Shown piece by piece: positions 20,501 to 63,564 of a DNA stretch of 64,000 nt. The stretch comes from Branchiostoma floridae (taxonomy: Eukaryota > Chordata > Leptocardii > Amphioxiformes > Branchiostomatidae). Position 1 is the stretch's first letter, and every line of letters starts with the position of its first letter. The stretch is from assembly GCF_000003815.2 (NCBI RefSeq), contig NC_049981.1:20368646-20432645 (forward strand), read 5' to 3'. The position numbers and the translations under genes are program-made. Under the pieces are notes generated by a model that was not told the origin of the DNA, did no database searches, and saw nothing but the letters and a program-made list of their open reading frames with translations.

Positions 20501-22239
20501 AGCACGGACCCCGGGGCACTGCTGCCGGAAACTCACAAGGAAACGGTAAGGATATCTTCTCTTCATGCAGAGGAACTGTGTAGTTTTGTTGTGGCTAATG
20601 AATATCCACATGGATTGGAGAGTCAAGGTCTTAAATCCTGGCCAATTAGAATTCTGAACCTAAAATATGGCTGCTTGCTCTTATCCTCAGTTTATTTTGA
20701 ATGCAAAGGTTGAATCTTTCCATTCCTAAAGCACTGCTGATGCTAGTATTCCCCACAATCCTTTCCCAGCCACTGATCAAGTTCAAAGGCCAATTAGATT
20801 TTCTGAATCTTAAGATATTTAGTTTACTTTGAATAAAAAGGTTGAAAATCTCCTATTAGTTTAATCCTTCCATTCTTAAAGCACTGCTGATGCTTGTATT
20901 TTCCACAATTCTTTTCCAGCCACTGATCAAGTTCAAAGGTTACCTGTACTTTGAGGAGAGGGACAACATGGATGCCGCCCTGAAGAATCTGACACCTCAG
21001 GAAGGGAGCAAGGTACGGCAAATATTCATCTCCAGTTGGTCATTGTTGGATTTGCACTTAGAGATTATCATGGTTGAAGTTATGTAACATTTCCCTGTAA
21101 TACAAACATTGCTGTGCGTGATACTCTTTTGGGTCATTGCTCAGGACATCATTTGACATGTTCTCTATAATTAAAAAGTCTTTGCTGCTTTTCCCTTCCA
21201 GATTGTGTATTACAAGAATGGAGAGAGTCAAGGAGTGGCATGGGGAGATATCTACTCAGGAACCTACTACCCTGCCATCTCTCTGTACAAGAATGTCATG
21301 GTGAGAGACCAACTATGAACATTCTTTTTTTCCTGTTGATAAAGTAGCTAGAATATTTTCCATGTGAAAAAAATGCATCCAAACACTTGAATCTTCATGA
21401 AGTATAAAAAGTATTGGATAAATAAATAAATATAAAAAGTATTGGATAAAAAGTATTGGATAAATAAATAAATATAAAAAGTATTGAGCATGCCATGTAG
21501 AGCCCGGTAGAGACCAATACTACAGACCTAAACAAACATCAGGGAGAGTAAGACAAGCCTGAATAATTTCATCCGGTCATCACTGCCCTGAAGAAGGTGA
21601 TAGATGGTCACCGGCTGTTATGTTACTCCTTGGTTGTGAATGAAGAATTTTGTGAGACAAATTCTTTTACTTTTTTCTTTGCAGGTGACAGTAAACTTTG
21701 GACCTGACTTCAAATTTCCACCTAAGGACCTGGACGCCAGCAGCTACCAACCAGTAAGTTTGTAACATCATTTCCCTCCATCTGTGGAAAAATTTGGTCA
21801 AGTGGGTAGAGTATTCGCCTTGCAGTCAGTAGGCCATGAGTTCTGTCCCCGGCCGAGTGATACCAAAGACTTAAAAAATGGTACATATTGCTTTTTTTGT
21901 TTAGCATTATTGGGAAAGAATATGGTAGCTGAACACACAGATTTGGACTAGTCCCTTGCTTTAGTGATTGCAAAGAGGTTTAATCAGGATAAGACTTCCT
22001 TGGTGATTGCATAAAGCTGTGGCCCAGGGCTATAGAAATGGAATACATGTATACACAAACAAATAAATAAACAAACCTGTGTATGGTTGTGCCCACACCA
22101 GATGTCTGCTGCTGCACAGGAGTCCATGGTAGAGTACACACTAGCTGAAGGCCTGTATCACATAGAGAATGGCACATCCATCCATCTAAACCAAGAGGAG
22201 GAGCAGCAAGCTGATGCACTCTTATTTCCCTCATCTTAG
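2495..22239 (+). CDS. ASH2L: ASH2L, core subunit of SET1/MLL histone H3K4 methyltransferase complexes
   Basis: Seventeen coding exons join in phase: 2495-2532, 3291-3485, 3893-3985, 4388-4476, 4781-4872, 5173-5268, 6136-6216, 15228-15330, 16065-16161, 17548-17759, 18218-18295, 18611-18700, 20352-20545, 20920-21012, 21202-21300, 21685-21753, 22102-22239. The product is 618 aa (human about 628). After an acidic N-terminus come an atypical PHD finger with winged helix (about residues 80-228; [34 protein letters not shown]), the basic KGRGAKRK patch (272-279), a SPRY domain (about 295-573; [32 protein letters not shown]) and a C-terminal helix ([13 protein letters not shown]) matching the DPY30-binding segment. 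With WDR5, RBBP5 and DPY30 it activates SET1/MLL methyltransferases in the nucleus. Oddities are a 9-kb intron 7, a weak donor after exon 8 (g|gtgggg) with an in-frame stop just beyond it, and a duplicated acceptor before exon 14. Exon 2 could instead begin at 3294. The start has a TISU context. Confidence 0.95.
3555..3660 (-). mobile_element. tRNA-derived SINE (minus strand)
   Basis: Read on the minus strand, the segment has an A-box-like TTGTGGTTAGCACG, a 5-bp anticodon-type stem with loop TTTGTGA, a long variable region and a B box GGTTCGAATCC inside CACGGGTTCGAATCCCGGG. The lack of a clean acceptor stem favours a SINE head over a working tRNA. It lies in ASH2L intron 2. Confidence 0.6.
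5706..5802. repeat. perfect 32-bp-arm hairpin (foldback MITE)
   Basis: Arms 5715-5746 and 5761-5792 are exact reverse complements (cagttactcaagcaactgg to tccaaaatcatatccagttg) around a 14-nt loop. Imperfect pairing extends to ggccaaa/ttttggc on the outside. A piece of the same arm (tccaaaatcatatccagttg) recurs at about 11187-11206, so it is a dispersed family. It lies in ASH2L intron 6. Confidence 0.85.
6867..8131. mobile_element. non-autonomous hAT-type DNA transposon with exact 8-bp target duplication
   Basis: The 16-bp terminal inverted repeats CAGTGTTTCCGCCAGA are identical at 6867-6882 and (inverted) 8116-8131. The 8-bp target duplication gactgtgt flanks the element exactly at 6859-6866 and 8132-8139. 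The CAGTG start and 8-bp duplication are typical of hAT elements. The 1265-bp body has no recognisable transposase, so it would be mobilised in trans. It holds a minisatellite of four 27-bp units (about 6920-7024) and GC-rich sequence with a TCTCGCGAGA palindrome near 7336. It sits in ASH2L intron 7. Identical ends suggest a fairly young insertion. Confidence 0.88.
6920..7024 (+). repeat. 27-bp minisatellite, four units
   Basis: Four consecutive units of about 27 bp follow the pattern accgcgaaaattaaattt plus aattgtaaa with a few substitutions. They lie just inside the left end of the hAT-type element, where subterminal repeats commonly bind the transposase; that role here is inference. Confidence 0.75.
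9065..9122. repeat. short inverted repeat
   Basis: Cctgggtgccatc near 9071 pairs with gatgacacccagg near 9108 with one mismatch, around a loop of about 25 nt. It is probably a MITE remnant in ASH2L intron 7. The rest of this intron from about 8140 to 15227, apart from the N gap, shows no supportable gene; its open frames look like chance. Confidence 0.4.
12034..12133. other. assembly gap (100 N)
   Basis: Exactly 100 N, a conventional scaffold-gap length, so the true distance is unknown. It lies in ASH2L intron 7 and interrupts no recognised exon. Confidence 0.98.
15340..15412 (+). repeat. (GAAT)n microsatellite
   Basis: An imperfect run of gaat/gatg tetramers starts about 10 nt after the assigned donor of ASH2L exon 8. 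Confidence 0.8.
18940..20208. mobile_element. pogo/Tigger-like non-autonomous element
   Basis: The left end CAGTGAATTCCAATTGTTCG and the inverted right end CAGTGGAATTCGCTTATTTG share the CAGTG(G)AATTC start, and TA dinucleotides flank both sides (18938-18939 and 20209-20210). This is the signature of pogo-type Tc1/mariner relatives. The interior has several ttggata/ttcgg repeats but no transposase reading frame. It fills most of ASH2L intron 12. Confidence 0.65.
20640..20938 (+). repeat. tandem duplication that copied the exon 14 acceptor of ASH2L
   Basis: Two units (20640-20787 and 20788-20938, about 85-90% alike by eye) both start ggccaattaga and both end with a polypyrimidine tract, an AG and the 20-nt string ccactgatcaagttcaaagg. 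In the second unit that string is the true start of exon 14 (20920). In the first it forms a decoy exon start at 20770. Reading from the decoy meets TGA at 20830-20832 after 20 codons. Confidence 0.85.
21405..21486 (+). repeat. short A/T-rich tandem repeat
   Basis: The phrase aaaaagtattggataaataa repeats with small changes over about 80 bp in ASH2L intron 15. A LINE-3'-end-like string (gaagaaggtgatagatggtc) follows at about 21592. Confidence 0.6.
21785..21870 (+). mobile_element. tRNA-derived SINE fragment
   Basis: The segment has an A-box-like tggtcaagtgggtagagt, an anticodon-arm-like tcgccttgcagtcagtagg and a degenerate B box gagttctgtcccc, spaced as in a tRNA head. It lies in ASH2L intron 16. 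Confidence 0.5.
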
Positions 22240-30200: not shown

Positions 30201-33200
30201 CCCTTGCAAAAGGAGATCTTTTTGACATAAGAGGAATGATATATATGTGGTATAAATTTAAAAAGCTATTTGAATACATCATCATTTGAATACCAGGGAA
30301 TTCTTTGTGAAGGTAAAAAATAAGAGGAGGTGCCTCTAGCATTTTAAAGGGAAAGGGCTAGCAACCCCTCCCATAAAGATACACCCTGCTACAGAAACAG
30401 CAAGGTAACTTGCTTCCCTATATGCAAGTAAACACTAGAAGGTGAACAACAGTAACATTGTTAGTTCAGGTGTTGTAGATGAACAAAGGTCCCTGTAAGA
30501 AGGAAATTTGTGACTGGTTGGTATTTTTCAGGTTGTCGTTAGCTGTGATGGTTTTTGTAAACTACGGAGGAGGGGGATACTGGTTCTTCAAACATGCCAG
30601 GTGGAATGGTAAGGTCATCAAAGGACTTTGTAACAATTGCAATACTGTAGGAGATACAGAGTTAGTAGGTAGCAGGAACAAGGTCAATTTGCATTCTGAT
30701 ATATAGTCACTGTGACTATATATCCGAAGGGATGTAAAATGGGGGTCTACTGTTCGATGGGGTTTCTTGAGCATGTTACAACAGCCTCATTACTAAGATG
30801 GGTACCTATAGCTACTGGCTGTAATGATTTGCCAAGGTGAATTACACAAGGTGAAGTCTTTAAATCACTACTTGCCAGCTGACCTAACCTAATACATGAA
30901 CACTTTGTATTAGAACAATTGAAAACTGTAACTATTCTTTTTTCGTTGTAGGCCTCACAGTAGCAGACTTGGTCTTTCCTTGGTAAGCAGATATTTCTCA
31001 ATGATTATGTTCACTCCAGCTAATCCGTTTGCAACATAAGAAGAAATTATACATTGTGTAGAAGTAAGCAAAATTGAACTAAGGAGAAAGTGAGCCTTTA
31101 AGAGATACAAAATCTTCTTAGTAATTTACAATGACTTAATATCATGATGGACTGTTAGTTCTTAATGAGGCCTTAAGGATTTAGGATTTGGGCCGTCTAG
31201 CAGCTCTTTATGGTACAGTAGAAGCCGCTTAATTGCACAGCCTATTTACCAGCAAATTTCGTGCAATTATCCGGCTGGTGCAATAATGCGGAGTTATCCA
31301 GCTGGACCGCACCGGTTTGGGATTTTGGGATTTTGTGCAGTTAACAGAAGTGTGAGTTAATCCGTTGTGCAATTGACTGGCTACGGATTGCACTGTAGTG
31401 GAACTTTTGGTAACTTTCAAGTTTTGTAGTTTCTTACATATCCTTCTATTTGAATTGGTGGTTAGGTTTTCCGCATTCTCAACTGATGACCTTAATAAAA
31501 GGTGTAGAATGTTTGCTGACGAATCGCGTTGTTTTGTGCAGGTTTGTGTTTATAATGGGCACGTCCATCGCCCTGTCGTTCCGGAGACTGCTGAAGAAGG
31601 GCGTGTCCAGACTGAGTCTGCTGTTGAAGGTCATCCAGAGGACAGTCATCCTGTTCCTGTTTGGACTGTTCATCATCAACACCAAGAAAGGACGTGAGTG
31701 CAGACTCTACATCCTTCCTACAGATCCACACTGTTTTTTATTACACCTTGTTTGTCCTTTCATGAAGGCTTTTATGACTGTTGGCCTTTTTGGTGAAGGA
31801 TTTTCTACCATCCCTGCTTTCTGGCTATTTCATGATCCTGAAACCTGGATTTGTAGTCATTAGTATTCGTGACTATTGTATACTACAGTATGATGTAGAA
31901 AAAAAGGACAAATAATAAGACAGTGCAATGTTTTATCTGGAAAAATCATCCGACCTTCTTCCTGTTCCAGACAACTCCTGGTCCACCCTGCGGATCCCGG
32001 GGGTGTTACAGAGACTTGCCCTGACGTACTTCATTGTTGCCCTTATGGAAGTGATAGGAGCTACAGCAGAGGACAGGAACTGGGTATGTCAGTCTTTTAT
32101 CTGACAAATCAAAGAAATCTATCTGTCAAATATTGTAACCCGTCCATTCTCTTATCACCTCTCCTAGTGTCTAAACTTTTTCCTTCCTTTCCTGTCTTCC
32201 CTTCTCTTTTACTCCCTTCTGTTCCCTTAGTGACAGTGCTTCTTTCCAGGGTGATGTGTGCCCTTCTCTTCCCCTCTGTCATATCTCTTGCCATCTCCCA
32301 GTTCTGTACAGTTAGTTTCTCTCTTCATCGACTTTCACTTCATGACTTTTGATGAAGAAGAATCTGCCTGTGTACCCAAATAAGAGTGAAAGTGTGATAA
32401 AATTAAACAAAAAAATTATACTACTGGCTGATAAATGTTGAACTTGTGTACATGCCCAGTGCCCTCCTACCCCTGCTGCTGTACCAGTGGACCCCCCTAC
32501 AGTTGCCGGTGGTATGGTCCATAGCTGCCATGTGTCCCCACATTAACTCCCCTTTTCTCTTGTATGTTTGTGTATGAAAGTCTTGGAAACACCGAGGCTA
32601 TCTGTCCCTGTACCTATTACAGACCTCGCGGATCGCGCCCATCCGGGACATCGTGAACTCCTGGGGGCAGTGGCTGTTCATGATCGTGGTGGTGACGCTC
32701 CATCTGGTGCTGATGTTTTGGCTTCAAGTCCCAAACTGTCCAATGTAAGCAAGCTTTATTTGATAACCGGTCACTTCTACTAGTCTAGGATAAAAGTACC
32801 AGAACTTAACCTTCTCTCTGTGAAGTAGCCTTATTGCACCAAGTTTATATTTGTTACATTGTTAGGCAGCAGAGAGAACGTTGATATTTGAGAAAATTCC
32901 CTTTCAACAGTTTTTTGGGTCATGATCCTTTTGTTCTGTCAATGTCAAATAGTCCACTGCAGTTCTTTGAAAAATTAATGTTACATTCTGATGTGCAAAG
33001 GCTCAAAATCAGCTCATGATTTCTTTTGCAGATTTTGTTATAAGACTAGTATAGAATTAGTTTGTGAGAAGGTGTTCCAGTTTGAAATACTGTAAACTAT
33101 CACATCAAAAACCATGAGCATAAAACCGCTGCAAAAATGTGAAGAATGACAGTAGATGTTTGCCCTCCCCAGTGGTTACCTGGGCCCTGGTGGTCTGTCT

Positions 33201-40634: not shown

Positions 40635-43600
40635 CTAGAAAACAGCGTTCTTTATGCTTGGCATAGCTTCACTCACATTCTGGTCCAGCCTCCGATATCC
40701 CCCGCCGCTGGGCCGCCGGCTTTTCCTGTCCCGTAAACCTGCCCGACCTTCTATGATGATGGCTATGATCTACATAACAAACAAACAAACACTGGTCACA
40801 AACAGCCCTGTCACATACATTTAGAGTAGGAGGCGTAAACCCCTAAACATGATTTAGGCCATGTTGATTTGATTATATGGATGACATCCTCTGGGAACTC
40901 CAAAATTGATGCGAGCGAGCAAGGAGCTTTTATCAGATAAAGCTCCTTGGAGCGAGCGAATAAAAAAAAAGTTTGGCAAAAAAAAAAAAGCTGGCTTCAG
41001 TATGTAATCAAAGTGGCCAGCAAGGTTGAACGTAGGACTACAAACACATAGTATGGTATACCAACAGTTAGATGTTGCGACCAGTACATCATACGGGTGC
41101 AAAACATTTCTTTTCTTCTTGGACCAATCTGAAATAAACAGACCTGAAAAAAAAATCAGACGAACGGGGTTCGACAATTGCAAAATGGACACACTATGTC
41201 GGTGGGTGTTTGGGGTCTTACCGGGCCAAAAAGACAACAAAAGCGAAGTGAGTAGAGGTTATAGTCACTTGTACCAAGTTTCTATAGGCAAAGGTACAGA
41301 GACAGTTAGCCTTTATTACATGAAGATGGGATTTTAAAATGCCAGTGGTAGTCCAATGTTCCTTTGTAGAGATTCCTTTGTAGCAAAATTGACCAATTAC
41401 CATTGTTTTGAGTATAATCAGTTCTCAAGTTTCCACAGACAATCAGGTCCAGGTTCACGTCCACCTGGAAATGATCCTCTGGACCTGAACGGGACCTATC
41501 CCGAATTTACTGGTACATGTACAAACCCCTACCAAAAATCCTTTTTTTCTTTCTTTCTGTCCTTTCACATCTTATTCTTTGACTTTTGAGATTTATTTTG
41601 GCATTCTATGGCATCATTTATCGATTTTCTTATACTTTTTTTTCAATCTACGGAATATTTGTGCTCATTTTACAGCTGCTTTGCACAATTTACTGTGTGG
41701 TCCAAAACTTTTTTTTTTTTTGGAAATGGCCGAAAATTGATCCCAGATTTCAGTTTTATCATACTAATGGAGTTTGTAACAGAGACTAGATTGTAGTTAT
41801 GCCTTTCAAACTTTTTTTACTGGCAGCCAGTTTGTTTTCACAAGGATAAGTACAAAAAATTCAAACCCATTTGAATCACTTTTTGGTAGTCTCATATATA
41901 GTTATCCCCTAGACACAAGCATTACGAATCCTGTCTATAGTTACCACCTGTCCACCTACACCACTCATTGAACACAATATTGGTTCCCTGAGTGGTCCTC
42001 TTGGGCAGGTTTCACTGGTTGGGCTGGTTCTAAAAATTGAAGAACTGCAAGCATCACAGAAAAAATGGGATCCTCTGTCTTCCACTGCTTCCAAAATACT
42101 GTATATTGGGAAATGTTTGCTGTATATGTAGTTTGATGTTCCTGGATTGAGCTTTAAAGCAATGCAAATATTTTTTTTGGTTCTATCCACCTACATGTGT
42201 ACCGGCCAACTTAAAACTGCCGTGAACACTCCAATTTCTCTCCAAAGCAAAATTAAATCACTTCAAACATTTCCCATTTTACATTAAGTCAAATCCAACA
42301 AAAAAAGAAGGTTTACCTTTTGTCTATTGTGGTAGGTGACATATCCTAGTACAATGAGTACACAGAAGGTCACAAAGTATGCCATGAAGTGTCCTTGTTT
42401 TGGCTCGTCGTCTAAGTCGTAGATATTAGCTTGAGCACCGAGGTCTTCTGTAACAAAGAAATTAAATAAACACTATAAGTGGTGTAAACATTTTATGCGC
42501 TGGTCTGTTTAACACAGTTTACTTGTCCAACTGTTGTCATAGACATTGTTTTAATCATACTTTAATTTCATCTTCTGAATTTTTCTTTGAACTCTGAACT
42601 CACCTAAAACGTAAACCTTAATCACCTATATGACAACTGCTACTTAAATGAGTACAACATTTCCAGCCACAAACATATCAAGTGAAATCAACACAGAACA
42701 ATATCTTGAAGTAACAGGCCTTGCATTAAATGACTGCCAGAAATGCACATGAGTTGGCTTGGAAGTTGGAGGTCATGCTGATAGCCTCTACCAGAGGCTC
42801 CACATGTTGCTGGAAACACAGTAGAAACTGGCCAAATAGATAACATGACAGGAGCTAGCTGGCCGAGGAGTACATTTTGCGACCAAACCGTACTCCTCGG
42901 CCAGCTAGCTGCCCTGGCATGTTATCAAACTATTATGGTAATTTCTACTGCAACTTCAGCAACCTGTGGAACCTGGTAGAGGCTATTATTTTAATTTTAA
43001 ATCAATTGGGTATAAAGTCTGTACAGACAAAAGAAGTTAAAGGTGCAAGCTTAGTGAGCAGGAGAAGGCGTATGTGTACCCACCTCAGAGCAGGAGGAGC
43101 CTTCCACATGTCACTATTAGTGCAAGCACAAGTCTGCCACACAAAGTCTACACAGCATGCTTGTTAAATCAGATTCTAAGTCTTAACAGGCAAATTAGTG
43201 GAGAAGACAGAACTTAAATGTGTTAGTCAGGATACGGAGTTTGTCTTCCTAAATGCCATACTCAACTGTCTATTGTGCATGGCTTTACTGTTTCCTGATC
43301 TACAGAGGTCTGCAGTGAGCTTTGTGAATGTCCCACCTCTAGACTACAGGATGACATATAAAACTCTCAACATAAACTCTCATAAGCATTATGCCTCCTA
43401 TTCAAACTCTATGCTATGCTATGCAATGACATAACATGTGTCTGTAAAGCTTGCATCTTCTTTATATGACATTTTTGGCAGTAATACACCCGGCGTTCCC
43501 TTGATCATTGTGCAAGTTTTTAGCCAATGCTTGCAGGTTCCTAATCCCCGTGGAGCCAAGTGAAATATACAGTCAACTTCTAGTGATTTCTAAATTCTGA

Positions 43601-46600
43601 AACATTGTTGTGATCGACAATCACAGCTAAAGCTTGTTGACTGTGTGACAGGGGCATTATGAAAATCGCAGTGAGAGGGTGTGCTGGAATAAGGAGTACT
43701 CCTGGAACAAGTACTGTCAATGGCGTCAAAGGTACAGGATAGCCATGTATGCATCAACACTGTCAAATGTCTGACTCAGAGTTTTCCCTAGCGCCAGTCA
43801 TTCTTTTGTTTGCAGACAGATTCTTGTTGCTAATGACAGACAGATATTATGCTCATTCTGTCATATTTACAGAGTTGGCATGTCTAGTATTTAACATATT
43901 GTTAAGAGCATGGGTTTGGTAGGGTGATGGGNNNNNNNNNNNNNNNNNNNNNNNNNNNNNNNNNNNNNNNNNNNNNNNNNNNNNNNNNNNNNNNNNNNNN
44001 NNNNNNNNNNNNNNNNNNNNNNNNNNNNNNNTCACTGTAGCTCAGACTAATGCTTTCTCACCAAGATATGCACTACTTAAGGTCCACAGAGGTCATTTGG
44101 TAACACGAGTTAAGCTAGTTCCTAAGGACTGAATGAATAGGGTGACATTGTTCTCACCTGTCAGTTGGGCCTGATCATTTCCATGGGGGTGGCCACCTTC
44201 TCCGGCCCAGTCACCCCCACCACCTGCAATGGTATCACCATCATCATGTTTAATAAAAGATTCGTCATCCTCTCCATCATCGTTGTAATCATGGTTTGTA
44301 ATGATGTGCCCGTTGTCGTAATCGTCATCTTCGTCATCCTCATTGCCATACACATCACCATCGTACTCACCCTCTTCCCTATCCTCATTCAAATCTCCTT
44401 CATTAACCATTTCTTCTTCCTCATCACGAGGCTCGTCAGGGTACGTATCCTCCTCATCATCATCATCTTCTTCTTCTTCCTCCTCCTCAATGTCTACTCC
44501 CGCCTCTTCTTCTTCTCCCTCTTCAAAGTTGGGGGGCAGTAGCTGGTTTTCTGGACCAGTGTCTTCTTGTCCTCCTGTTTCCTGACCAATGGCAATCCCT
44601 TCTCCAAGTCCAGTTTTGTCACCCTCCCCAATTGGTTGTCCTACTGTTTCCTGACCAATGGCAGTCTCTTCTCCAGGTCCAGTTTTGTCACCCTCTCCAA
44701 TTGGTTGTCCTACTGTTTCCTGACCAATGACAGTCTCTTCTCCAGGTCCAGTTTTGTCACCCTCCCCAATTGGTTGTCCTACTGTTTCCTGACCAATGGC
44801 AGTCTCTTCTCCAGGTCCAGTTTTGTCACCCTCCCCAATAGGTTGTCCTGCTGTTTCCTGACCAATGGCAGTCTCTTCTCCAGGTCCAGTTTTGTCACCC
44901 TCCCCAATAGGCTGTCCTGCTGTTTCCTGACCAATGGCAGGCCCTTCTCCAAGTCCTGTTTTGTCACCCTCCCCAATTGGTTGTTGTCCTGCTGTTTCCT
45001 GACCAATGGCAGTCTCTTCTCCAGGTCCAGTTTTGTCACCCTCCCCAATTGGTTGTCCTCCTGTTTCCTGACCAATGGCAGTCTCTTCTCCAGGTCCAGT
45101 TTTGTCACCCTCCCCAATTGGTTGTCCTGCTGTTTCCTGACCAATGGCAGCCCCTTCTCCAGGTCCAGTTTTGTCACCCTCCCCAATTGGTTGTCCTACT
45201 GTTTCCTGACCAATGACAGTCTCTTCTCCAGGTCCAGTTTTGTCACTCTCCCCAATAGGTTGTCCTCCTGTTTCCTGACCAATGGCAGTCTCTTCTCCAG
45301 GTCCAGTTTTGTCACCCTCCCCAATAGGTTGTCCTGCTGTTTCCTGACCAATGGCAGCTCCTTCACCAGGTCCTGTTTTGTCACCCTCCCCAATAGGTTG
45401 TCCTCCTGTTTCCTGACCAATGGCAGTCTCTTCTCCAGGTCCAGTTTTGTCACCCTCCCCAATAGGTTGTCCTACTGTTTCCTGACCAATGACAGTCTCT
45501 TCTCCAAGGCCAGTTTTGTCACCCTCCCCAATAGGTTGTCCTGCAGTTTCCTGACCAATGGCAGTCTCTTCTCCAAGGCCAGTTTTGTCACCCTCCCCAA
45601 TTGGTTGTCCTGCTGTTTCCTGACCAATGGCAGTCTCTTCTCCAGGTCCAGCTTTGTCACCCTCCCCAATTGGTTGTCCTGCTGTTTCCTGACCTGCGAC
45701 AGCCCCTTCTCCAAGTCTAGTTTCTTCAATGGGCTTGCCATCTTCTGGGTCAGGTCCTCGCTTGTCTACAGACTGCACTTCTTCAATCCCACCTGGACCT
45801 CCATCACCAGTCAACTCTTCACCTATCAGCAGAATATTGGAAAAAAAATATTTGTTTAATAAGGTATTCTTTTATGTGATTTGTTATCCTGTACCAACAT
45901 CAAAACAACTTCACAGCCTTCAAATCCTTGACATATAAAGGCATCATGATCATGTAAACAAAACAAAACAAAAACTTACACAAAGAACAGTACAGTAAAC
46001 TAAGTATGAATTCACAGTATTAGATTTGGACCATCTCTTTCTTACATTACTAGCCCTTAATCACAATGACAGGGCAAGAATTTTTACATATAAAATGAAA
46101 TGACACATATGAGAAACAAGAATCACCTTTTGCATCATCATCCTTTGTCTCTGCAGCATTTTCACCCTCTTCCTGATTAGCTGTGAGTTCCTTATTCTCT
46201 GTAGCATCATCAGGGTCCTTGTCTGCTTCAGCATTCTCTGTGATATAAAAAATATGTATGTAACACTGTCAAGTATCAATAAGGACAGCCTACTCCAATG
46301 TAAGGTTTCCAACATAGGCTTTATCTACTGGTTACACAAACTATAGTGATGACGATGTGGCTTAACAGGTAGCAACCTCACAGTTGAGCTCCTGGTTCCA
46401 ATTCGCTGGTGACTGAGAGACCTTGGTTCAAACCTGGGAAGGGTATCTGGGTTGGGGCCCCAAATGGGGGTCCCATGTTTCACGGTGTTTGAGAAGCTGC
46501 CTTAAGCAAGTTAAAGGGAGAAGTGAATTGCTTAGCCTACTAAAACAGCAAGGAAACCTGTTGACCTGCACTCCTAGGACTTACAACAATATCTGATGAA

Positions 46601-49600
46601 CAGCCTAGAAACGTGACTTTGGCTGATCATGTCAATCAATGTCTTTGCAGAAAAGCTTACTCCTACATTTTTCTACATTCTAAAACTGTACTTTATTCGT
46701 AATAACGTTGAATATGTGGAGGACATAACAACCGGGATACAATCTTTCAAATCTAAGTTTTCAAACTTGTGGTGACTTCACGTAAAACAGCTTTGTTTGT
46801 GATGCAATTCTAGTGAATATTCTGATCAAACACAGATGGAGTACGTACCAAACAGGCTTGTTTCTTTACCTTCCTGTCCGGGGTTGTCTACGTCCTTCTC
46901 CGTTTCTTGTACAGTCTCTTCCTGTGGAACATCCCCACCTGTCTGGTCCTGCTGAGGACTTCCACCTGTTTCAGCATCTTCTGCCACCTCATCCTTCTGG
47001 AGCGCCTCTCCTGTCTCCTCCTGGGGCAGGTTACCTCCTGTCTCATCACCTTGTACCGTCTCCTCCTGGGGCAGGCTACCTCCTGCCTCTCCCTGCTGGG
47101 GGTTGTCTGCTTCAGGGTCCTCCTGAGGTCCATGGCCCGCCTCGGCCTCTTCTGCCTCTGTGTCAGCAAACAGGTTCCTGCTTTGGTGGACATTTTCTGC
47201 AACTGTCAGGTAAACATTCCATTAGATGAAGATTTTTATAGCTGATAGACACTATACAGCCTTGTATTTCAAATTTATTGGGGTGTTACCCAGCTCTAAA
47301 AATCCTACGAGATATTATTCTTTCTGAAAAAAAAAAAAACAATGAAAAAAATCTTAAAATTGTGTGGGCTGCATTCCTGTCAACTAAATATATACTTCTT
47401 AGAAATTCAATTTTCTGAGTTGTGTAATGTGCTTTATCCATTAATATTAATAGTGAACTCATACTTAAAAAATATTGGCCTCTGTGTTCTAACTAACAGA
47501 GTTCAACTTCAATAACTGGGCTATGATATAGCAGGGAAACAGACAACACTAAACAGCTATTCTTAAAGAAAACACTGGGGAAAAAAAGCTTTTCCTGAAA
47601 TATGGATTGAAGCATTTAAGTGGAGAAGGAAGAAGTGGTACACAAGTACCTTGTTTGTGACCACAGTGGTCATTGTCATTGTCAGTGTGCTTGAGGTAAT
47701 ACATATCAAGACGTTATCATGCAAACTTTCCCTTTTTTCTGTCAACAGTGTTAAAAACTTTGCTGTTTTTGCCTATTTGCTTGGATCAAATTTTACTCTA
47801 GAGACATCCAGGCAAGAAAGACGAAGACGTCCCTCTTCAGTACTGGGCAGAAAACTGGACTGTCCAAGCTATCGGAACAGGATGTACTTGAGAGATACAC
47901 CTTGAGGATGTACCCATACAGACATCAGTTGGTAAATATTATTGTTAGCACAGAGAACTTTTGATGTCTACATTTGATTGATGTTCCTGTGCTCTGGTAA
48001 AGAAAGTGGCTGCAACGTTTTGGTGCCAAGTGGTTCTCTCTGGTTTGTAAACAACACTTAATGTCTCTTGACCCACATGAGGGATATGGGAAAAGGTGAC
48101 CACCTTTGGCAGGTATAACAAAAGGACAATGGTGCTGGCTAACATGGAGTCAACTTGGTAAAGGCAAGGGTGAAATGTACAAAGCTATGTTGCTTTTATG
48201 TTTCTGCCAAAAATCAAAGGGTGCATTTGGGTATGGTACATACCATGCATTCTCAAAACATCATCAAGGGGGAAGATTTCAAAACGTGCAAATGTAACTT
48301 CGACTTGTCAGCTGATTATCAAAAACATCACAACCCTATTGTCTTAATGAACATTTTTAAACCATACAATAACAAATGAAAAGAAATCTTTATAGTTTTT
48401 AGTTAATTACATACATGTGTATCATGTACAATCCAGTATATTATGGCACCCATGCACCAGCCACTATTCAAGTACCATGTGTTTACATCTGCCTGTTTAA
48501 ACTCAAGTGTCCACAAAAACTCAAAGTCTCTGATGACATACAGATTTGTTCATCAGAGGGGAAGTTAAAGCTCTACACACTCATCATGATCCATCACTCA
48601 ATGGAAACGTCCTTGAAAACTGGTACAACTACCGATTATGTAAATGAAGAGATGTGGCCACTGATGACCCTTTGAAAGTTGACGATGACATCACAAAGAC
48701 GTCATATGATGATAGCCTCATTTGAGTGAATCACCTAGACCGGACTGTCTAAACTTCTGTTGCAGAGAATTAAAACATCAATGATGTGTCAGTGAACAAT
48801 TCAACTACCCAGCAGGCATAAGTGTGACAAATGGAGAACTTCTGTACAGACCCAGTTCAGTAAACATTCAAATTTACTGACTGAGAATCAGAAATGGAAG
48901 GATGCCTGTAGCTGATGAGCAAATTAATGAAATAATGTAAATGATGAGTAGCAGAATAGAGTAGAGAACTGGAGTAGAGTACTTTAGTTGAGCAGCAGTA
49001 TCAATCAAGCTGGAACTGCTCTTGAATCAAACATTGCATCTTAACATAATCAACAACTTACTCTACTGGTAGAAAAGTTAGATATTACTCACCAATATGG
49101 ATGTCTCTGTTCTGGAGCAGCTGGAAGACACCATCACACACGAGGAGGTGCTCCTCATCACAGACTCTCTTACACATGTCCTCATTGTCTGACAACAGGA
49201 ACAGTCCTGGGGGTACGAATAAAGCTTTCTTTACTTATATTTGGCATATGAACTCCTGTGTAGTACAGGTAACAGATATACAATATAGTCTCTGCTTTCA
49301 CTAGTTTCAGCTTAATCAAATTATTACTATTATTATTATAGGACAAGTGCTTACAAGTTAGTACAAATGAAACTAGATGTTTCTAGTTGTTAAGCAGTTC
49401 AATATGTTTTGTTGGTAATAGATTTTAACTGTAGGTTTCAAAAACACTTTGAGACAACCCATCTGATCTTGACAAAGTTACCACAGAGTGACGTATGGAG
49501 CCTCAAAATTTCCTACTAAATGTGCAGACTAGGGGTGGGTACCGGTACAGAAAATTCAGGTCCAGGTCGGGTTCAGGTCCAAATGATCAGGTCCAGGTCT

Positions 49601-50962
49601 GGACATGAACCTGGACCTGATGCAGTATGACTCATACCAATGGTCCATTTCACTACAAAGAAATCTGTTTGGTGGAGTATTAGACTTACACTGGCATTTT
49701 GAAATCCTACAACGCTAACTGCACCTGTACTATTGGCTGTAAAATTTGGTAGAAATTACTACAAACTCTACTCTACTTCACTCTTGTTATTTTCTTCCAC
49801 CTGCATGTAGTGCATGCACCAAAACGTGTGAATGCCTGATAAAATAATCTGTAAATTTTCTAATCGGTCCAACATCCGGTCCACCTAATTTTTTCAGGTC
49901 CATTTTTTCTGGACCGGTCCAATAAGAAAAAACGGTTTTGTACCGGTACGCTGTACCGATACCCAGCCCTAGTGCAGACTCTATGACTTACAAGTTATCA
50001 CAGTGAGAGAAAAATAAAAAGTTTGGCAGTTACACATGTTGTATTTCTCACAAAGACCTTGACAATCTTATGTCCTTGCTTTGTACCGAGTTGTCCTGCT
50101 TCAGCTAGGGGCTGAGTTGTCGCAGGTGCAGAGTTGTCCTGATACCGCTAAATCAAATACTGTTGTTTTTCAACTGACTCAAACTGGTTTTTAAACTTTC
50201 CCTCTGTCACTGGGAGTCTGCTAAAATAACTGAATAGGAGACATACATGATACAATTGTCTTAACATTGTCTGGTAGCGGGACATCTACATTGTACACAG
50301 AACATTGTCTGATTGAATGGAACCTCCTTGGTTAAAACAACAACACAAAGAGCAAATTATATTATTCAGAATACATGACGTCTATTTTTAGCTTTACCTG
50401 ATCAACTTTGCTGGTAGGTAACTTTGCGACTTCTCTTCCTATTCATCTTATACATTATGAAAGCCATTATCATATATAACGTTATATCATAACTAACTTG
50501 TTGGCCAAGTGCTGTAAACCCAATTTTTTTGCACCCACCTAGATATTTCGTTCGTTCTTTGGCGATTTCGTCACGCAGTTCACTGAAACTGTGACACAAG
50601 TCCTCACTTGTTGACGCTCCCAGCTGGAGTTGAACAGGTTCGTTACAGAGAGACATGCTTTGTTCGTGGAAAAGTTCACAGATCGGCGTGATAGGCGACA
50701 TCTCTGTGTCTACCTCGTACACACTGTCACATGCGTCCAGAAAAACTTTCTGGAATTCTGGAGTAGGGAACATACACTTCTTGTCTGTCCACTCCCGAAA
50801 CGCGATCTCTCCGACGGTAAGCGTTTCATTCCTCTGTCTCTGTATCCTCTCGACTGAGAAACCATGACTGGAAGAGGTACAGAAAACTAGAAGGACGAGC
50901 AAAAGCTTCATTTTGGAGAGCTGCGACGAGTACTGCTTTCTACAACTACCTGTCGACGCCAT
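40635..50962 (-). CDS. TGN38/46-KCT2-like type I trans-Golgi membrane protein
   Basis: Seven coding exons (minus): 50962-50539, 49206-49093, 47196-46870, 46237-46127, 45822-44158, 42447-42317, 40769-40635; phases after exons are 1,1,1,1,1,0; product 968 aa. In order: a signal peptide (MKLLLVLLVFCTSSSHG after a 17-residue lead), a Cys-rich head with eight cysteines (about 60-179), an acidic Gln/Glu-rich stretch, sixteen 23-residue repeats of the type GEGDKTGPGEETAIGQET, a Glu/Asp-rich stalk, one membrane helix (about 901-919) and a 44-residue tail. The helix edge and tail (YHNRQKIIAIIIEGRAG, RRPSGGGYRRLDQ) match TGN38/TGN46, and the end (RLDQNVSEAMPSIK) matches KCT2. YRRL at 949-952 fits the YxxPhi signal that cycles TGN38 between the trans-Golgi network and plasma membrane. 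Starts at 51004 and 50911 are possible; 50962 has a TISU-like context. Precise role unknown. Confidence 0.87.
40842..41780 (+). repeat. dispersed repeat, copy B, broken by other insertions
   Basis: The blocks at about 40850-41110 and about 41560-41780 correspond in order to copy A at 37917-38265. Between them lie a hairpin (about 40917-40960, caaggagctttt/aaagctccttgg) and a relic of the hAT element found at 49530-49971. It lies in intron 6 of the TGN-like gene. Confidence 0.5.
41325..41525 (-). mobile_element. diverged relic of the 49530-49971 hAT element
   Basis: The order of phrases aaaatgccagtg, cctttgtag, caggtccaggttc and ctggacctgaac matches, in inverted orientation, the interior of the intact element at 49530-49971. 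The ends are not preserved. It lies in intron 6 of the same gene. Confidence 0.5.
42781..42987. mobile_element. foldback element, copy 2
   Basis: Arms 42781-42873 and 42890-42987 are inverted repeats around a 16-nt loop. The inner 21 bp pair perfectly (gctagctggccgaggagtac with its complement), and the outer part carries agcctctaccag and gctccaca(t/g)gttgctg, as in copy 1 at 26558-26782. It lies in intron 5 of the TGN-like gene. Confidence 0.8.
43932..44031. other. assembly gap (100 N)
   Basis: Exactly 100 N, in intron 5 of the TGN-like gene, about 130 bp from the repeat exon. Confidence 0.98.
44562..45690 (-). repeat. coding minisatellite, sixteen 69-bp units
   Basis: Sixteen units encode GE(G/S)DK(T/A)G(P/L)GE followed by a variable pair, then IGQET(A/V/G)GQPI, preceded by a partial unit. 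All are 69 bp except one of 72 bp (about 44943-45014), which adds one Gln. Because 69 and 72 are multiples of 3, long open frames also appear out of frame and on the other strand; these are by-products. Variants such as TVIG and GAAIG recur at separated units, as expected from unequal exchange. Confidence 0.9.
46340..46470 (+). mobile_element. tRNA-derived SINE
   Basis: An A-box-like gtggcttaacaggtag and a B box ggttcaaacct are followed by a GC-rich body (gttggggccccaaatggggg). It lies in intron 3 of the TGN-like gene. The 3' end is not clear. Confidence 0.5.
49530..49971. mobile_element. non-autonomous hAT element with exact 8-bp target duplication
   Basis: The left end TAGGGGTGGGTACCGG and inverted right end TAGGGCTGGGTATCGG are related repeats. 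The 8-bp duplication gtgcagac is exact at 49522-49529 and 49972-49979. TAGGG(G/C)TGGG is a common hAT terminus. The 442-bp interior has many caggtccaggt strings and no coding potential. It is in intron 1 of the TGN-like gene. Confidence 0.85.
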
Positions 50963-57200: not shown

Positions 57201-60121
57201 CCCCAAGCTAATTGAACTTTAGTTGTGTGTATTTGTTTAAATCTTTGTCAAAAGATATAAAAGTAGATATCATGTGGAAAAACTTTTAACTTAACCCCTG
57301 ACAAATTTCCATCAAACAAGGAGTTTTTACCTCTTCCTTTGGTGCTTGTGGTGGAGATGGCGGCTGTTCAATTTGCTTCTGTGGCTGTTCAGCAGGCTGT
57401 TGTGGTTCTGCAGGTGGCTGTGGCTTTGCAGGTGGCTGTGATTGTGCAGGTGGTTTTGGTGGTTGTGCAGGTGGCTGTGGCTGTGCAGGTGGCTGTGGCT
57501 TTGCAGGTGGTTGTTGTGGTTGCACAGGTGGTTGTTGTGGTTGTGCAGGTGGCTGAGCAGGTGGTTGTTGTGGTTGTGCAGGTGGTTGTTGTGGTTGTGC
57601 AGGTGGTTGTTGTGGTTGTGCAGGTGGCTGTGGCTGTGCAGGTGGCTGTGGCTTTGCAGGCGGTTGTACAGGTGGCTGTGGTTGTGCAGGTGGTTTTGGT
57701 GGCTGTGCAGGTGGTTGTGCAGGTGGCTGCTGTGGTTGTACAGGTTGTTTTGGTGGCTGTTGAGCTGGTTTCTGTGGTTCTGCGGGTGGTTGTTGTCCTT
57801 GTGAAGCTGGTGCCGAAGGCAGTTCCGCTGGTTTTGCAGGCTCAGCTTCCTTCCGTTGTAACTGCATCAATGTTCCTTCCTTCTGCACATCATTAACCGC
57901 AGCTGAAGAAGAAAACATACATATGGGAATAATTACAATCCTGTAATGATTAAGTTCAACATTTCTAAATCATTTGGCCAGGTTTAACTTGTAATGATTG
58001 AAATAATACTAGTATTCCTCCAACAGCCCTGTCCACTAAAAAACATAGCAGCTTTCTATTATGGTATATGATGATCAGTACAAACAGGAACTAAGTGCTG
58101 GCAAAACAGACACAGGTCTGTTTTTCTTTGGCAATTACAATTTTCTATGAGCTATGTATACATCCACATGTATCTACAGAAAAAGTTAGAAGAGTCAATG
58201 CATAGTTGATACCAATGGCAAACTGCTTTGTACTTCGTCTAAAGAATAAAAATGTAGCAAGATTGCCCTAGCTTATTTTAGTTAACAGTCACTCTTGGCA
58301 TATAGACCACACTGAGTGTAATCTATCATTCTCTCAAAAGGCCACAAGCATGAATGTTAGGTCCTATATACAAGTAAAACGCTAGTTCACCTTTATTTGC
58401 GGGGTACCCTATTTTCATTGTTTTTAAAAACAGGGTATCTAGAAATATCAAGTCGACGGAAGGTTCAAATTGCAATATATGTATTTTCAAAACATTGCAG
58501 CTTGAAGCCACTGTCCGTCAACTTGATATCCCCACAAGTAGATACGCTGCTTTTTTTAAACAATGGATTTAGATTACCCCACGAATAAAGGTTAACTAGC
58601 CTTATATGCACAAGTAAATGAGTATAGCAATTGCACCATAACTGAGTTTGAATTGTTCTTTAGCGGTCATTGATGTGCTGTAATGCCAGTTCTAGCTGGT
58701 TCCTTCATGCACAGGGCGGTTTTGACTGGTTACTTCAATACATAAAGGATGACGCACATGCAAGTACATGTAGAAATACTGGTTAGGTCACCTTTAGTTT
58801 GATATGCAAATGAGGTCATTCTGCTTTCATCAGTAAGAATAATAATATTCATTGTTTTCACTTAACTGTGTCACGTTATTTTCACTTTGATTTGTATATT
58901 AGTTGTCCTGAACATGATATTCTTATTATACAATTGAATGTGTGCCCTACATATCACTGTCTTCTCAGAAATGGTCTGCCCCGAGGCAATGTATTAAGTG
59001 CCATTATATCAACAACTTAATGGTAAAACTGTAAGCATGCAGGTCTGTTCCCAGCCCTCCAAAAACAGCAAGACAGACTTTATTCTACATATATTATAAA
59101 CCTACAAAAGTGGTCACATCTTGGTGATCCCCTACATAATTTTCATAGTGACATCTAATGATCTATATTTTACTTATCTGTCGACAAAGATTGGATTTTA
59201 TAAAAAAAATTATCTGTCCCCTGAGTGGTCTTCCTGGAGAGATCTAACTGTATAACATTATGTCCTCTTATGTCCCTGATTCAAACAACAGATACATAAC
59301 ATCATGACAAGGGTTATCATTATGCCATGAGAAGGTTTGTACCTGTATACCCTGATAAACATTAGGGACATCACTGTAAAACTACCGTATGATGGAAGGG
59401 GCTTGATACCATGTAGACATGTACTTTTAACACCTCATAATTCCACCAGATGCCATAAGATTGTCACATGAGAAAAGATACATGAATTCAAAGTGATAAA
59501 AATAGATGTACCAACGAAGCATCAGTAATCCTGGGTTATATAAGTTATAACGTTTATAGTAACGTGTTACACTTTAGAATCTATCTAACGTTAGGTGTTA
59601 GCAAAAAGCTCCTTGGTCCTCTACAACATCTTTTTAATCATGTGACGTTATTATGGCACCTGGTGGATTTATGAATATGAGAGTTGAGGTAAGCAAGGTT
59701 CTTGGGTTAAATGTCGGAGGCAATCGATAACACCGAGACGTAAATAGAACCAAGGAGCACAAACTCAACGTAACGTTATCTAATCTCAGTTAATCAAAAT
59801 GTCGTTTAGTACTAAGTTCGAGATACATAAATGTATATTGGCTGATTAAGCTACAGTAATGTTATATAATCTCCAGCAAACAGACAATGACGACATGGTC
59901 GGTCGACTAAAAATTCGTCAAGGCAGCTGGCTCCTGCTGGACAAACCGGTTCTGAAGCTTCAGGCCCGTGATGTCACAAAATGTCTAAACTTGATGCCGA
60001 TTTTCCACGATAACTTACCAACATTGCCGGCTGGATTAGCGTTACCAGGGTCCTCTGCAAGACTAGGCTGTGCCTTATAGAAGCTGACGAGGAGAAACGC
60101 GAGGACTAGTCTGGAAATCAT
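54261..60121 (-). CDS. type I membrane protein with Q/P-rich lumenal region and YRLL tail, family unknown
   Basis: Seven coding exons (minus): 60121-60019, 57902-57331, 57013-56942, 56480-56380, 55806-55709, 55238-55126, 54350-54261; phases after exons 1,0,0,2,1,0; product 382 aa. A signal peptide (MISRLVLAFLLVSFYKA) precedes a long Gln/Pro/Ala region (about residues 55-220, many QPP and QPQQPPAQ units), an acidic stretch (EPEEEKKEEETLEEDADDED), a Tyr/Asp-rich block (MYTDYYDYDYYDYN, WDTDDYNWDDF), a basic linker, one helix (about 341-362; VMVLGVIII then AILLFLYW) and a 20-residue tail RGRPITQYHGYRLLYNKEED. YHGY and YRLL are possible tyrosine sorting signals. I do not recognise the family. Like its downstream neighbour it is a type I protein with a low-complexity lumenal part and a GYR(R/L)L tail, which suggests Golgi/endosome cycling as inference. 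The reading is supported by seven consecutive in-phase junctions. Confidence 0.78.
54826..54981. mobile_element. 156-bp MITE-like inverted repeat
   Basis: Ggccttttaccaactcggcc at the left pairs with gggccaagttggtaaatggcc-type sequence at the right, with another internal copy of gggccaagttggtaa. It lies in intron 6 of the Q/P-rich gene. Confidence 0.6.
57370..57790 (-). repeat. coding QPP/QPQQPPAQ repeat
   Basis: This purely coding stretch of degenerate 9- to 24-bp units (on the plus strand tgtgcaggtggttgttgtgg and variants) gives the Gln/Pro/Ala segment. It also creates a 185-aa Val/Gln-rich open frame on the plus strand, which is a by-product. Confidence 0.85.
58385..58596. mobile_element. 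212-bp MITE with TA flanks
   Basis: The left end gttcacctttatttgcgggg and inverted right end gttaacctttattcgtgggg match over about 24 bp. Both flanks read CTAG, consistent with a TA target. It lies in intron 1 of the Q/P-rich gene. Confidence 0.75.
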
Positions 60122-62715
60122 GTTGGAGAGAAGAAGACACGAGTGAGCAGCCACGTATCTTCTATCTGTCCCTGTCCCTCTGTGATGGCCCGCGCGGGGG
60201 ATTGTGGGAAACATCCCCCAGGTGACGCAACCACGCCCATCTCAGGTATTGTGGATGGACGATACCATCTCGGCAAGATATTCTTGTGACATTCTAGCAC
60301 CTTTATTTCAACACATGGCTGGGTATGAAATATTTCACAAACAACAAAACAACTTAATTTATCAGCTCGTTTTCAGGTTGTTTTCAGGTTGACGAAGCAC
60401 AGATTTCGTGATCGTCTTCATCACTATAAATAAATCGATCAACTGGATGAAATCTAACCTTTCCTCCCGACCTCTATAAAAAGCACCCTGCAGGCCGATT
60501 CGAGCTTCTCATCATATAGGTTCAAACAAACAAACAAACAAAAAACGACAACAAATATTTTGTGTACCTTTCCCGAAAGCAAGGAAACAAAGACGATTAA
60601 TACATTTTCGAATCGCAGAGAGTTAAACCGAAAGATAAAAGGCTCCGCGAGACACATCTCTAAACTATATATCTTTATATATCTCTGACGTTATACCTCT
60701 AAACTAAGGGGCCCAAAATCTTAAGTCATCAAGACCGACGTACAAAACATCAAGACAATCTACTCAAGCCTTCTAGAGTTGTTATGTTGACAGAAATGTA
60801 CACGACCCCAACTACTTTTTCATGGACATATGCCCCGACTTGCGACAGGTCTGCTGCATTATCATCGTGCGATCGCAAAGTGAGGGTATCCTTGGAAGAG
60901 TCGCGCATGCCAATGTCGTACAATATTCATGTGCCATGTTACCTGTCTTAGAACCTTGTCGGCCGTTGGTCCTAGATCTGCCACAGCCTTTCAGTGTAAT
61001 CATACGACATCTTAAAATCGTACAACAAACTGCGACAAAAGTGGCAGGCGGGCCCCTACAGGAAAAACAAGGCTTTTACTGTGTTCTAACCATGACAGGT
61101 GACCGTGGAGTAGGCGTTAACCTTGTCACGGTTACCCGGACTCTCACCGCGAACATGGGTGGTCCTGTCATCACTCTGTCTATTCAACGAGACACACAAC
61201 AGTTATCGGACGGGAGCATAGCCTCTAGCCGCTTCACAGCCTTCTAGGAGCGCGGCGTTTATTTTGGGGGAGCCGGCTGATTATCATTTCAACCAAGGAC
61301 CTTGTTTTGATATATGGGCCAGGTTCTTAAACGCTATAACTCGAAAAAAAATCTATATATTGTAACAAGAAGTGCTTTCCGAAGTTCCTAAGATAAAAAG
61401 CAACGTGCTTGTTGGCAAACGTGGCACTGATAATACTTAATACAGCTTCCTTCCAGTGACTAGGGTAACACCTGGTTTCGTGTCTGATGATACGTTACCA
61501 TGTGTAATACCGACGGCATTATATAGTAATATCAGAGTAATACCATAAACCGCATTCGCCAGTCAATCGGTTTTCTGATTTTGCCTCCTTCCTTTGAGGT
61601 AAACGCGAACTACTAAAAGATACATGGAACATGCGTAAAACTGACTGAACCAGCGCTTATATCTGCCTGCAGATTAACAGTGCGTAACACGAGTGGGAAG
61701 ACCATAAATGGTGTCCATGTACAAGTTGACTGCACAGTGCATCAGCACTATGATATTCAGCAACAGTGACGTCACCATCTGAAGAAAGTTGACAAGGCAG
61801 ACAAGTTATCCTGCGAACATATCTACACCTTAAAATGCACGGTTGGTATTTAAATTTTTAAAAATATTTAAAAATCAATAAAGATTTTTTTCAAACTCCA
61901 AATGGCAGACAACAGAACTTAGACCCCAGTGAGGTGTACGTTTCCACATAACGTTACCTGCCTAGTGGGTGGTGACTGTTTTCCCTCAAGGTTTGACAGA
62001 GCTCACGGTATCTGCAGCACCTGATACCGATCGAGACATCTCACTTTCCTCGCTTCTGTTCCAGGCACGGTCGGGAGGGACCTCACACTGCACTTCGTCC
62101 AGGAATCCGACAGAGGTCGATACAGCGCCTACAGGGTGGTTAGAGGGCAGGCCGGGGTCATGTTTGTGTGTCGAGACGTGATCATTACGCAGGGCACGCG
62201 GGAATGAGGCCATGGCCGCCTCCACAAGGCAGCGCTCCAGGACGTTATTTCCCAAGATAAACACCTGCCGGGAGGATATCTGGGTTTAAACTACCGCCAA
62301 CCTCTCATTCATCTGTCGTCACCTATCGGAGGGAGCGCTCTAGCCTTTCCATCTACCGGGCGAACTGCTGGACCGTACAGGGCCGACATAGGGTTACCCG
62401 TCATGTGTTAATATTTCTACCGGCGGGAACGGATGAAATAGGCGTTTCCTCTCTCCGCGGCTGCTGTCACGCGATCGCTACAACTACTACACGTACACGG
62501 GAGAAGATCGGAGCATTAATAGCGCTTTCGGCTCGTCTAGCGCGGTTCTTCATCCAGAAACGTGCCGTCTCCTGTCAGCGAGGTGCCCCAGGCGTGTACA
62601 GAAGACTTTCCAAGTCACTGGGAAACTTTCAACCTCTCCGCGGCTGGATGGATGCGTCTTGAGTAACAGTGCAACGTTTGTAACGTTTTAGTTGTATACG
62701 GCACGTGGACATGTT
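60122..62715. other. divergent spacer between the Q/P-rich gene and GASK1-like gene
   Basis: This 2.6-kb head-to-head spacer becomes GC- and CG-rich from about 61970 to the GASK1 start. It is probably a CpG-rich promoter and 5' leader. An open frame at 60822-61247 resembles no family and contains tcgtac/gtacga repeat phrases, suggesting an old transposon. An ACAA microsatellite lies near 60522. Confidence 0.5.
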
Positions 62716-63564
62716 ATGAGTTATCATGATCTGGACACATTGTTGGCTGCCCCGTTGGTGTTCGTTGCGAGGAGCGTGTTTGTTTTAGGAACCCGCGTCT
62801 GGCAGCCGCGGTGCGGGCCAGGCCTGGCGGCGGCACAGGGCTGGCGCGCTCTCAGGGCGATGCGCAGCCGAGACCTGAAGACAGTCCTGGCCCTCATCGC
62901 TGTAACAAACGCCATGGTGGTGTGTGTGTTGTACGGTGTTATGTCAAATTCTCGCGTGGAGACGCTCAGTAATGCTGACATTTTAAACCCTACAAACACA
63001 CAGCCTTCCCCAATCTTCATGCAAGATGCTGGCCGGGGTACAGACGCACAGAACACCCAGGGGACGCGTCGGAACGTCCGGTACCTGACGTTCCAACCCG
63101 ACTACAACAGAAAACATTTTAGGACGTTCACGGTCAAGAAAGTTACCCAAAATGCACAGTCGCGACCTAGTGCCACTGAGAGAAGTAAAAAAGTTAGAGG
63201 TAGCAGTGTCAGAACACTAGCTCACAGGCGCGACAAGAAAGAGAACATCAGAGTTTACGCACTTCCTCCATGGTTCTCGGAGACTGACCTGTTGGACATG
63301 CACAGGTTAGCTGACGAGAACATGACCTTCGCTGGAAGAGATACACGGGGACTAGACTGGTGGACTTTGGGCACAACTGGGAAAACGTCTGAAACGTTGC
63401 TGACTGAAGAAGGCGAAGTCAGCGCCATGGAGTGTAAAAGCCACTGCATTATTGTCGACGACGAAAAAAGGTTACATCAGGTGTTCGCCTTTCATCTCGA
63501 TCGCGTCCTCGGGATCAACCGGACGTTGCCAATGGTTGCGCGATCTTTCAGGCAGATGTTCCAT
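62716..63564 (+). CDS. Golgi-associated kinase 1 (FAM198/GASK1) homologue, first coding exon
   Basis: The exon encodes 283 codons from the ATG at 62716 and ends at the donor ccat|gtaaga. The frame is open to TGA at 63598 only by reading into the intron. A single hydrophobic segment (TVLALIAVTNAMVVCVLYGV, about residues 55-74) follows a basic MRSRDLK, giving a type II Golgi-style signal anchor. A basic, Ser-rich stem follows. The end carries YALPPWFSETDLLDM, GLDWWTL, METCKSHC-like MECKSHC and VFAFHLDRVLGINRTLPMV; the last closely matches GASK1A/B and starts the FAM20/four-jointed-like secretory kinase fold. The catalytic lobe lies beyond the right edge. The alternative start at 62860 removes 48 residues and begins just before the anchor. 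Vertebrate GASK1 proteins are Golgi proteins of poorly known substrate. Confidence 0.82.

Follow-up and report, generated by a model that had tools for sequence, protein, structure and literature searches.

TGN46, encoded by TGOLN2, is a standard trans-Golgi marker, and its lumenal domain has tandem repeats. In GeneCards, C5orf15, the gene for KCT2, has TGOLN2 among its listed paralogs, and the kinship of the two genes is already known. TGN46 was reported in 2024 as a cargo receptor (PMC10928510), and the available parts of the published accounts describe sorting of soluble cargo via its lumenal domain, recycling and intra-Golgi position driven by a tail that contains YQRL, and export in CARTS carriers that is independent of this tail. 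According to the accessible sections of work on TGN38, DYQRLN was crystallised with AP2, and the AP-4 mu subunit gave no detectable binding of a TGN38 peptide. For KCT2, no title on its function was found in the open-access literature, as far as titles and the starts of abstracts go, and no joint treatment of the TGN46 and KCT2 families was found there, judged mostly by listing.

Here we analyse an amphioxus gene whose predicted cytosolic tail resembles that of TGN46 in its proximal half and that of KCT2 at its distal end. We give a probability of roughly three in four to the reading that this gene is the single-copy amphioxus counterpart of both TGOLN2 and C5orf15, that it encodes a cycling type I protein, and that the vertebrate pair arose in the early vertebrate genome duplications. 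Neither the two-in-one tail nor the linkage of the gene to VDAC, TCF and SKP1 was found in the open-access literature listings consulted.

Gene model and predicted protein

The gene lies on the minus strand at positions 40635-50962 of the window, by which we mean the whole stretch of 64,000 nucleotides that was analysed (C3:20368646-20432645). It is predicted to have seven exons that together form one open frame ending in TAG. The length of the product depends on the start codon, being 975 aa from 50962 and 958 aa from 50911, where the product begins MKLLLVLLVF...; the original prediction had numbered 968 residues. Introns are in phase 1 in five of six cases, and the last is in phase 0. All features below are on the minus strand unless stated otherwise. 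Exon 1 (50539-50962) contains the candidate start codons, a peptide that looks signal-like by eye, and the beginning of a lumenal region with eight cysteines, which lie within residues 63-165; this region ends in exon 2 (49093-49206). Exons 3 (46849-47196) and 4 (46127-46237) are acidic, and exon 5 (44158-45822) encodes acidic repeats together with an acidic, Asp-rich region. The repeats form a tandem array at 44567-45723 with a 69-bp unit present in 16.7 copies with 93% matches, which corresponds to an acidic repeat of 23 residues. Exon 6 (42317-42447) encodes a juxtamembrane segment, the predicted membrane span FMAYFVTFCVLIVLGYVTY (42332-42388) and the residues YHNRQK, and exon 7 (40635-40769) encodes the cytosolic tail IIAIIIEGRAGLRDRKSRRPSGGGYRRLDQNVSEAMPSIKNAVF and the stop codon. 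The span has a hydropathy of 1.99 over 19 residues and lies near residues 908-926, and values above 1.6 were reached only in 19-residue windows starting at residues 906-909. The predicted product is a type I membrane protein in which a signal-like start, an acidic lumenal part, one span and a 50-residue tail follow one another.

Intron 5 contains a run of 100 N at 43932-44031. In the same intron, an inverted repeat around CTAGCTGGCCGAGGAGTAC was seen by eye at about 42857-42912, and may represent a small mobile element.

The N-terminal 204 residues, which include the cysteine region (49093-50962, minus strand), had no Pfam match at E<=10, and to our knowledge neither human TGN46 nor KCT2 has such a region. 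Modelling of residues 18-141, which cover part of exon 1 only, with AlphaFold2 without an alignment gave a helical model with a mean pLDDT of 53.7. A Foldseek search of the PDB with this model returned six rows, the best with an E of 4.3; the model is so poor that this outcome shows nothing either way. When the membrane-tail part was compared with solved structures at E<=10, the only two rows were to photosystem I subunit F/III, with E values of 0.46 and 0.76, and we rejected them as chance matches.

Lumenal tandem repeats are a feature that the amphioxus protein has in common with TGN46, but the 23-residue acidic repeats are different from those of TGN38/TGN46, and the N-terminal eight-cysteine region is a further difference from these proteins. 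The lumenal part is also far larger than that of KCT2. It comprises 871 residues with a pI of about 4.05, 17.3% Glu, 9.3% Asp and a single NxS/T site. This composition and the 16.7 tandem repeats would suit an acidic granule protein that mainly condenses cargo or calcium, and not a recycling sorting receptor. However, the matches to known families fall in the membrane edge and in the cytosolic tail with its YxxPhi signal, and we regard a function mainly of this kind as fairly unlikely. It would in any case be compatible with the proposed ancestry. Human TGN46, in the available portions of the published work, joins a cargo-sorting lumenal domain to a recycling tail, so that granule and sorting roles need not be exclusive.

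Comparison of the tail with TGN46 and KCT2

The original prediction held that one tail carries the signatures of both TGN38/TGN46 and KCT2. Exons 6 and 7 joined scored 48.1 bits (E 2e-12) against PF17818, the KCT2 model and the sole Pfam family found in the C-terminal part, well above its curated cut-off of 26.2 bits. Alone, exon 6 (19.2 bits) and exon 7 (21.5 bits) fall below this cut-off. The score of the joined exons exceeds the sum of the single scores, which supports the splice. The junction between these exons is in phase 0 and has standard splice letters, with the donor AAG/GTAAAC, where exon 6 ends in ...YHNRQK, and the acceptor TTGTTATGTAG, after which exon 7 reads IIAIIIEG...YRRLDQNVSEAMPSIKNAVF and then stops.

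We also scored provisional reference tails against PF17818, and obtained 198.6 bits for human KCT2, 43.4 bits for human TGN46 and 36.5 bits for rat TGN38; the first of these values also served as a check on the KCT2 end used as reference. Since the model catches all three tails, it already unites the families. The position in the model at which the alignment ends differs between them, being 169 for TGN38, 171 for TGN46, 180 for the amphioxus protein and 187 for KCT2.

We then compared the two halves of the tail pairwise with the provisional TGN46 and KCT2 reference tails, using 5000 shuffles for each comparison. The membrane edge and proximal tail scored 62 against TGN46, a value that no shuffle equalled, and 30 against KCT2, for which three of the 5000 shuffles were as good. 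The latter score is explained by the HNxxK edge, which is common to both families. Beyond HNxxK, the proximal tail scored 40 against TGN46 (0/5000) and only 16 against KCT2, where 795 of the 5000 shuffles were as good; the KCT2-type proximal tail is thus absent from this part, and the TGN-type feature KIIAxxxEG...RRP is present. At the distal end the situation is the reverse. Here YRRLDQNVSEAMPSIK scored 70 against KCT2 with 13 of 16 residues identical (0/5000), in keeping with the KCT2 feature YHRLDQNVNEAMPSLK, and 28 against TGN46, in an alignment limited to YxRLDQ (1/5000). The KCT2 and TGN46 reference tails scored 51 against each other (0/5000). The sequence comparison thus confirmed that the proximal tail is TGN46-like and that the distal 16 residues are KCT2-like, and the predicted mosaic was borne out both by the PF17818 score and by the comparison of the two halves.

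Within exon 7, the membrane-proximal IIAIIIEG (40746-40769) is TGN38/46-like by comparison with the provisional reference tails. It is followed by RRPSGGGYRRL (40686-40718), which combines a TGN-like RRP with the YxxPhi signal YRRL (40686-40697). The TGN38 peptide KVTRRPKASDYQRL is printed, together with DYQRLN, in the accessible parts of published papers, which bears out the reference tail from RRP to the Leu. The KCT2-like NVSEAMPSIK (40650-40679) forms the distal end, with PF17818 positions 164-180 falling at 40650-40700. Taken with the predicted type I topology, the overall pattern HNxxKIIAxxxEG...RRPxxxxYxRLDQ with its YxxPhi signal constitutes the likeness to TGN38/TGN46, and the distal YxRLDQNVxEAMPSxK, together with the Pfam score above cut-off and a VDAC neighbour, constitutes the likeness to KCT2. 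The YxxPhi core had been predicted to be kept, and in YRRL the Tyr, the Arg at +2 and the Leu at +3 are all retained, at a spacing from the membrane similar to that in TGN46 (tail position 31 in amphioxus, 28 in TGN46). The residues that precede the Tyr differ, being GGG in amphioxus and ASD in TGN38/TGN46. The C-terminal end is NAVF in amphioxus as against ITNDYIF in the KCT2 reference.

It had also been proposed that TGN46 lacks the distal end. In the published numbering available, isoform 2 of human TGN46 has 437 residues, with a tail at 403-437 and YQRL at 430-433. This places the end of the protein four residues past YQRL, consistent with that proposal and in agreement with the reference tail of 35 residues. 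In amphioxus 16 residues follow YRRL, twelve more than in isoform 2.

A mosaic of this kind might be an artefact, if the tail exon belonged to another transcript or if a short tail had converged on YxRLDQ. The tail is only 50 residues long and the exon structure is predicted from sequence. Two of the upstream junctions are weak, with scores of -0.3 for the exon 5 acceptor and 1.7 for the exon 3 donor on an ad hoc splice scale. In addition, YxRLDQ occurs once in the six frames of the 264 kb searched but five times across 20 shuffles of this sequence, and so is weak evidence by itself. The longer patterns RLDQNVxEAMPS[LI]K and RRPxxxxYxRL, by comparison, each occur once in the six frames of the 264 kb and not at all in 20 mononucleotide shuffles. 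KIIAxxxEG has no occurrence in these six frames because an intron cuts the motif. Against an artefact stand the standard splice letters at the phase 0 junction, through which the PF17818 alignment passes with a joint score above the sum of the exons, and the distal KCT2 identity and proximal TGN46 match, each of which was unreached in 5000 shuffles. We therefore consider an artefact very improbable.

Copy number and gene neighbourhood

Searches of the whole assembly covered 513,431,437 bases in 431 contigs, of which C3 accounts for 34,247,348 bases. PF17818 returned four rows at E<=10, two of which are exons 6 and 7 of the same gene (19.8 and 18.1 bits). The other two lie on C5, one at 14.9 bits (E 6.6) and one at 14.6 bits (E 7.4); a TGA is present in each, and both were rejected as chance-level matches. 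Querying with the KCT2 tail gave the tail exon of the amphioxus gene as the sole match (E 1.31), and the gene's own tail matched only itself at E<=0.001. The TGN46 tail gave no match in the whole assembly; since this query misses even the amphioxus tail exon, it is uninformative on copy number. Thus no second gene of the TGOLN2 or C5orf15 type, which would have counted against the original proposal, was found in the assembly by profile and tail searches, whose sensitivity is limited, and a copy too diverged for these searches, or one within an assembly gap, may exist. Searching viral and prokaryote genome contigs for the tail gave 32 and 596 pattern matches, respectively, and confirmed no relative; none is expected in these collections, which are without animals.

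We compared the surroundings of the gene with those of the human genes, taking the order in published gene lists as map order. In the portions of these lists available, C5orf15, VDAC1, TCF7 and SKP1 stand in a row in human, and C5orf15, VDAC1 and TCF7 are listed in pig. On the other side, human lists give TCF7L1, TGOLN2 and RETSAT, and further on MAT2A and GGCX; one of these lists separates TCF7L1 from TGOLN2 by a single LOC entry. In amphioxus, a VDAC gene lies at C3:20274123-20280005, on the same contig and 129,275 bases from the gene described here; the probability that a gene falls by chance no more than 135 kb from a particular position is ~5e-4. A Porin_3 search of the whole assembly gave five rows, three of which are this VDAC gene. 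The other two, 2 kb apart on C1, were considered as a second VDAC and rejected, since the stretch checked is TOM40, so that one VDAC locus was found.

The remaining markers were also located genome-wide. The only TCF/LEF locus found in the assembly (PF08347, two rows) is at C3:26.71-26.74 Mb, and the only SKP1 row is at C3:33.14 Mb. MAT has two loci, at C3:26.14 Mb and C11:2.83 Mb. The loci of PF05090, the GGCX family, are on C6 and C11, and C3 has none. Four of the five marker families searched genome-wide (VDAC, TCF/LEF, SKP1 and MAT, but not GGCX) therefore have a locus on C3. This contig makes up 6.67% of the assembly, and the presence there of three single-locus markers would be expected by chance with a probability of ~3e-4, GGCX not being counted. 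Within the 264 kb searched, there was no row at E<=1 for UBE2B, PPP2CA, MAT2A or the TCF HMG box, and SKP1 gave a chance-level row only (E 0.67).

The TCF/LEF, MAT and SKP1 loci are about 6-13 Mb from the amphioxus gene. The available part of a 2020 amphioxus paper places one ancestral-linkage boundary inside chromosome BFL3, and if C3 is BFL3 these distant markers might lie beyond it; the VDAC link is independent of the position of this boundary. The GGCX-type loci on C6 and C11, the placement of one of the two MAT loci on C11 and the negative marker searches of the 264 kb speak against the preferred reading. Nevertheless, the absence of a second copy from the search results and the neighbours shared in four of five families support the proposal that two vertebrate genes derive from one ancestral tail, for which the amphioxus gene is a candidate ancestral form.

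Alternatively, the amphioxus gene could be the ortholog of KCT2 (C5orf15) alone, with TGOLN2 stemming from an earlier duplication and amphioxus having lost the other copy; the TGN-like proximal tail would then be a shared ancestral state. The nearest shared neighbour, VDAC, is on the C5orf15 side, and the curated family that names the amphioxus gene is KCT2. However, PF17818 also catches the TGN46 and TGN38 reference tails, the proximal tail is common to TGN46 and the amphioxus gene and lacking in KCT2, and in the human lists a paralog of the TCF/LEF gene on C3 accompanies each of the two genes. We consider orthology to KCT2 alone quite unlikely, and prefer a single counterpart of both genes.

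Several other features were observed in the window and elsewhere. On the plus strand of the window there are ASH2L exons at 17528-18082 and 20270-20713 (PDB matches of 3.6e-28 and 2.6e-30) and an HGSNAT-like exon at 31414-31863, which matched heparan-alpha-glucosaminide N-acetyltransferase in the PDB at 2.5e-05 and Pfam HGSNAT_cat below its cut-off. In human, ASH2L, HGSNAT and VDAC3 are all on 8p11, and the ASH2L exons may thus extend the ancestral block proposed here. An exon of the FAM198 (GASK1) family lies at 62692-63600 on the plus strand (56.4 bits), and a Pro/Gln/Ala-rich low-complexity open frame of 227 residues from stop to stop at 57286-57969 on the minus strand. A tRNA scan found none. 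At C11:9473882-9476798, HTTM-domain matches fall inside open frames that run for 956 and 1002 residues with no stop, which would be an intronless and possibly acquired gene, or contamination.

Proposed origin and role of the two-in-one tail

If the amphioxus gene stands as the one outgroup to the two vertebrate paralogs, a trait it has in common with either is most simply ancestral. Under the preferred reading, TGOLN2 and C5orf15 would go back to a single chordate gene, close to VDAC and linked to TCF/LEF, that was copied along with its neighbours early in vertebrate history. In TGN46 the membrane-proximal half of the tail would have been kept and the distal end lost; KCT2 would have kept the distal end while its proximal half changed.

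The protein would most likely cycle between the trans-Golgi network, endosomes and the cell surface. Clathrin adaptor mu subunits would read YRRL in its tail as they read YQRL of TGN38, and the role of the acidic lumenal repeats would be to hold secretory cargo or to escort it. Because the Tyr, Arg and Leu are kept at a similar spacing, we infer that adaptor-driven cycling would be the likeliest role of the amphioxus protein. We likewise infer the expression, adaptor binding, cargo role and duplication history of the gene.

The distal NVxEAMPSxK, which amphioxus has in common with KCT2, probably provides a second tail-binding element. More tentatively, and with what we judge to be somewhat less than an even chance, duplicates from 2R of a cargo receptor with two separable sorting elements may have divided an ancestral itinerary between them, so that the function of the KCT2 motif might be read from amphioxus. 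One element would be the YxxPhi signal with the RRP/KIIA membrane-edge part and the other the distal NVxEAMPSxK; TGN46 would have lost the latter, and KCT2 would have replaced the former.

The likely ancestral state of the tail can be read from an outgroup gene in which both halves are present, and such a gene would tie both human genes to one paralogon. It also points out NVxEAMPSxK as a conserved motif of KCT2, the role of which could be tested by tail swaps.
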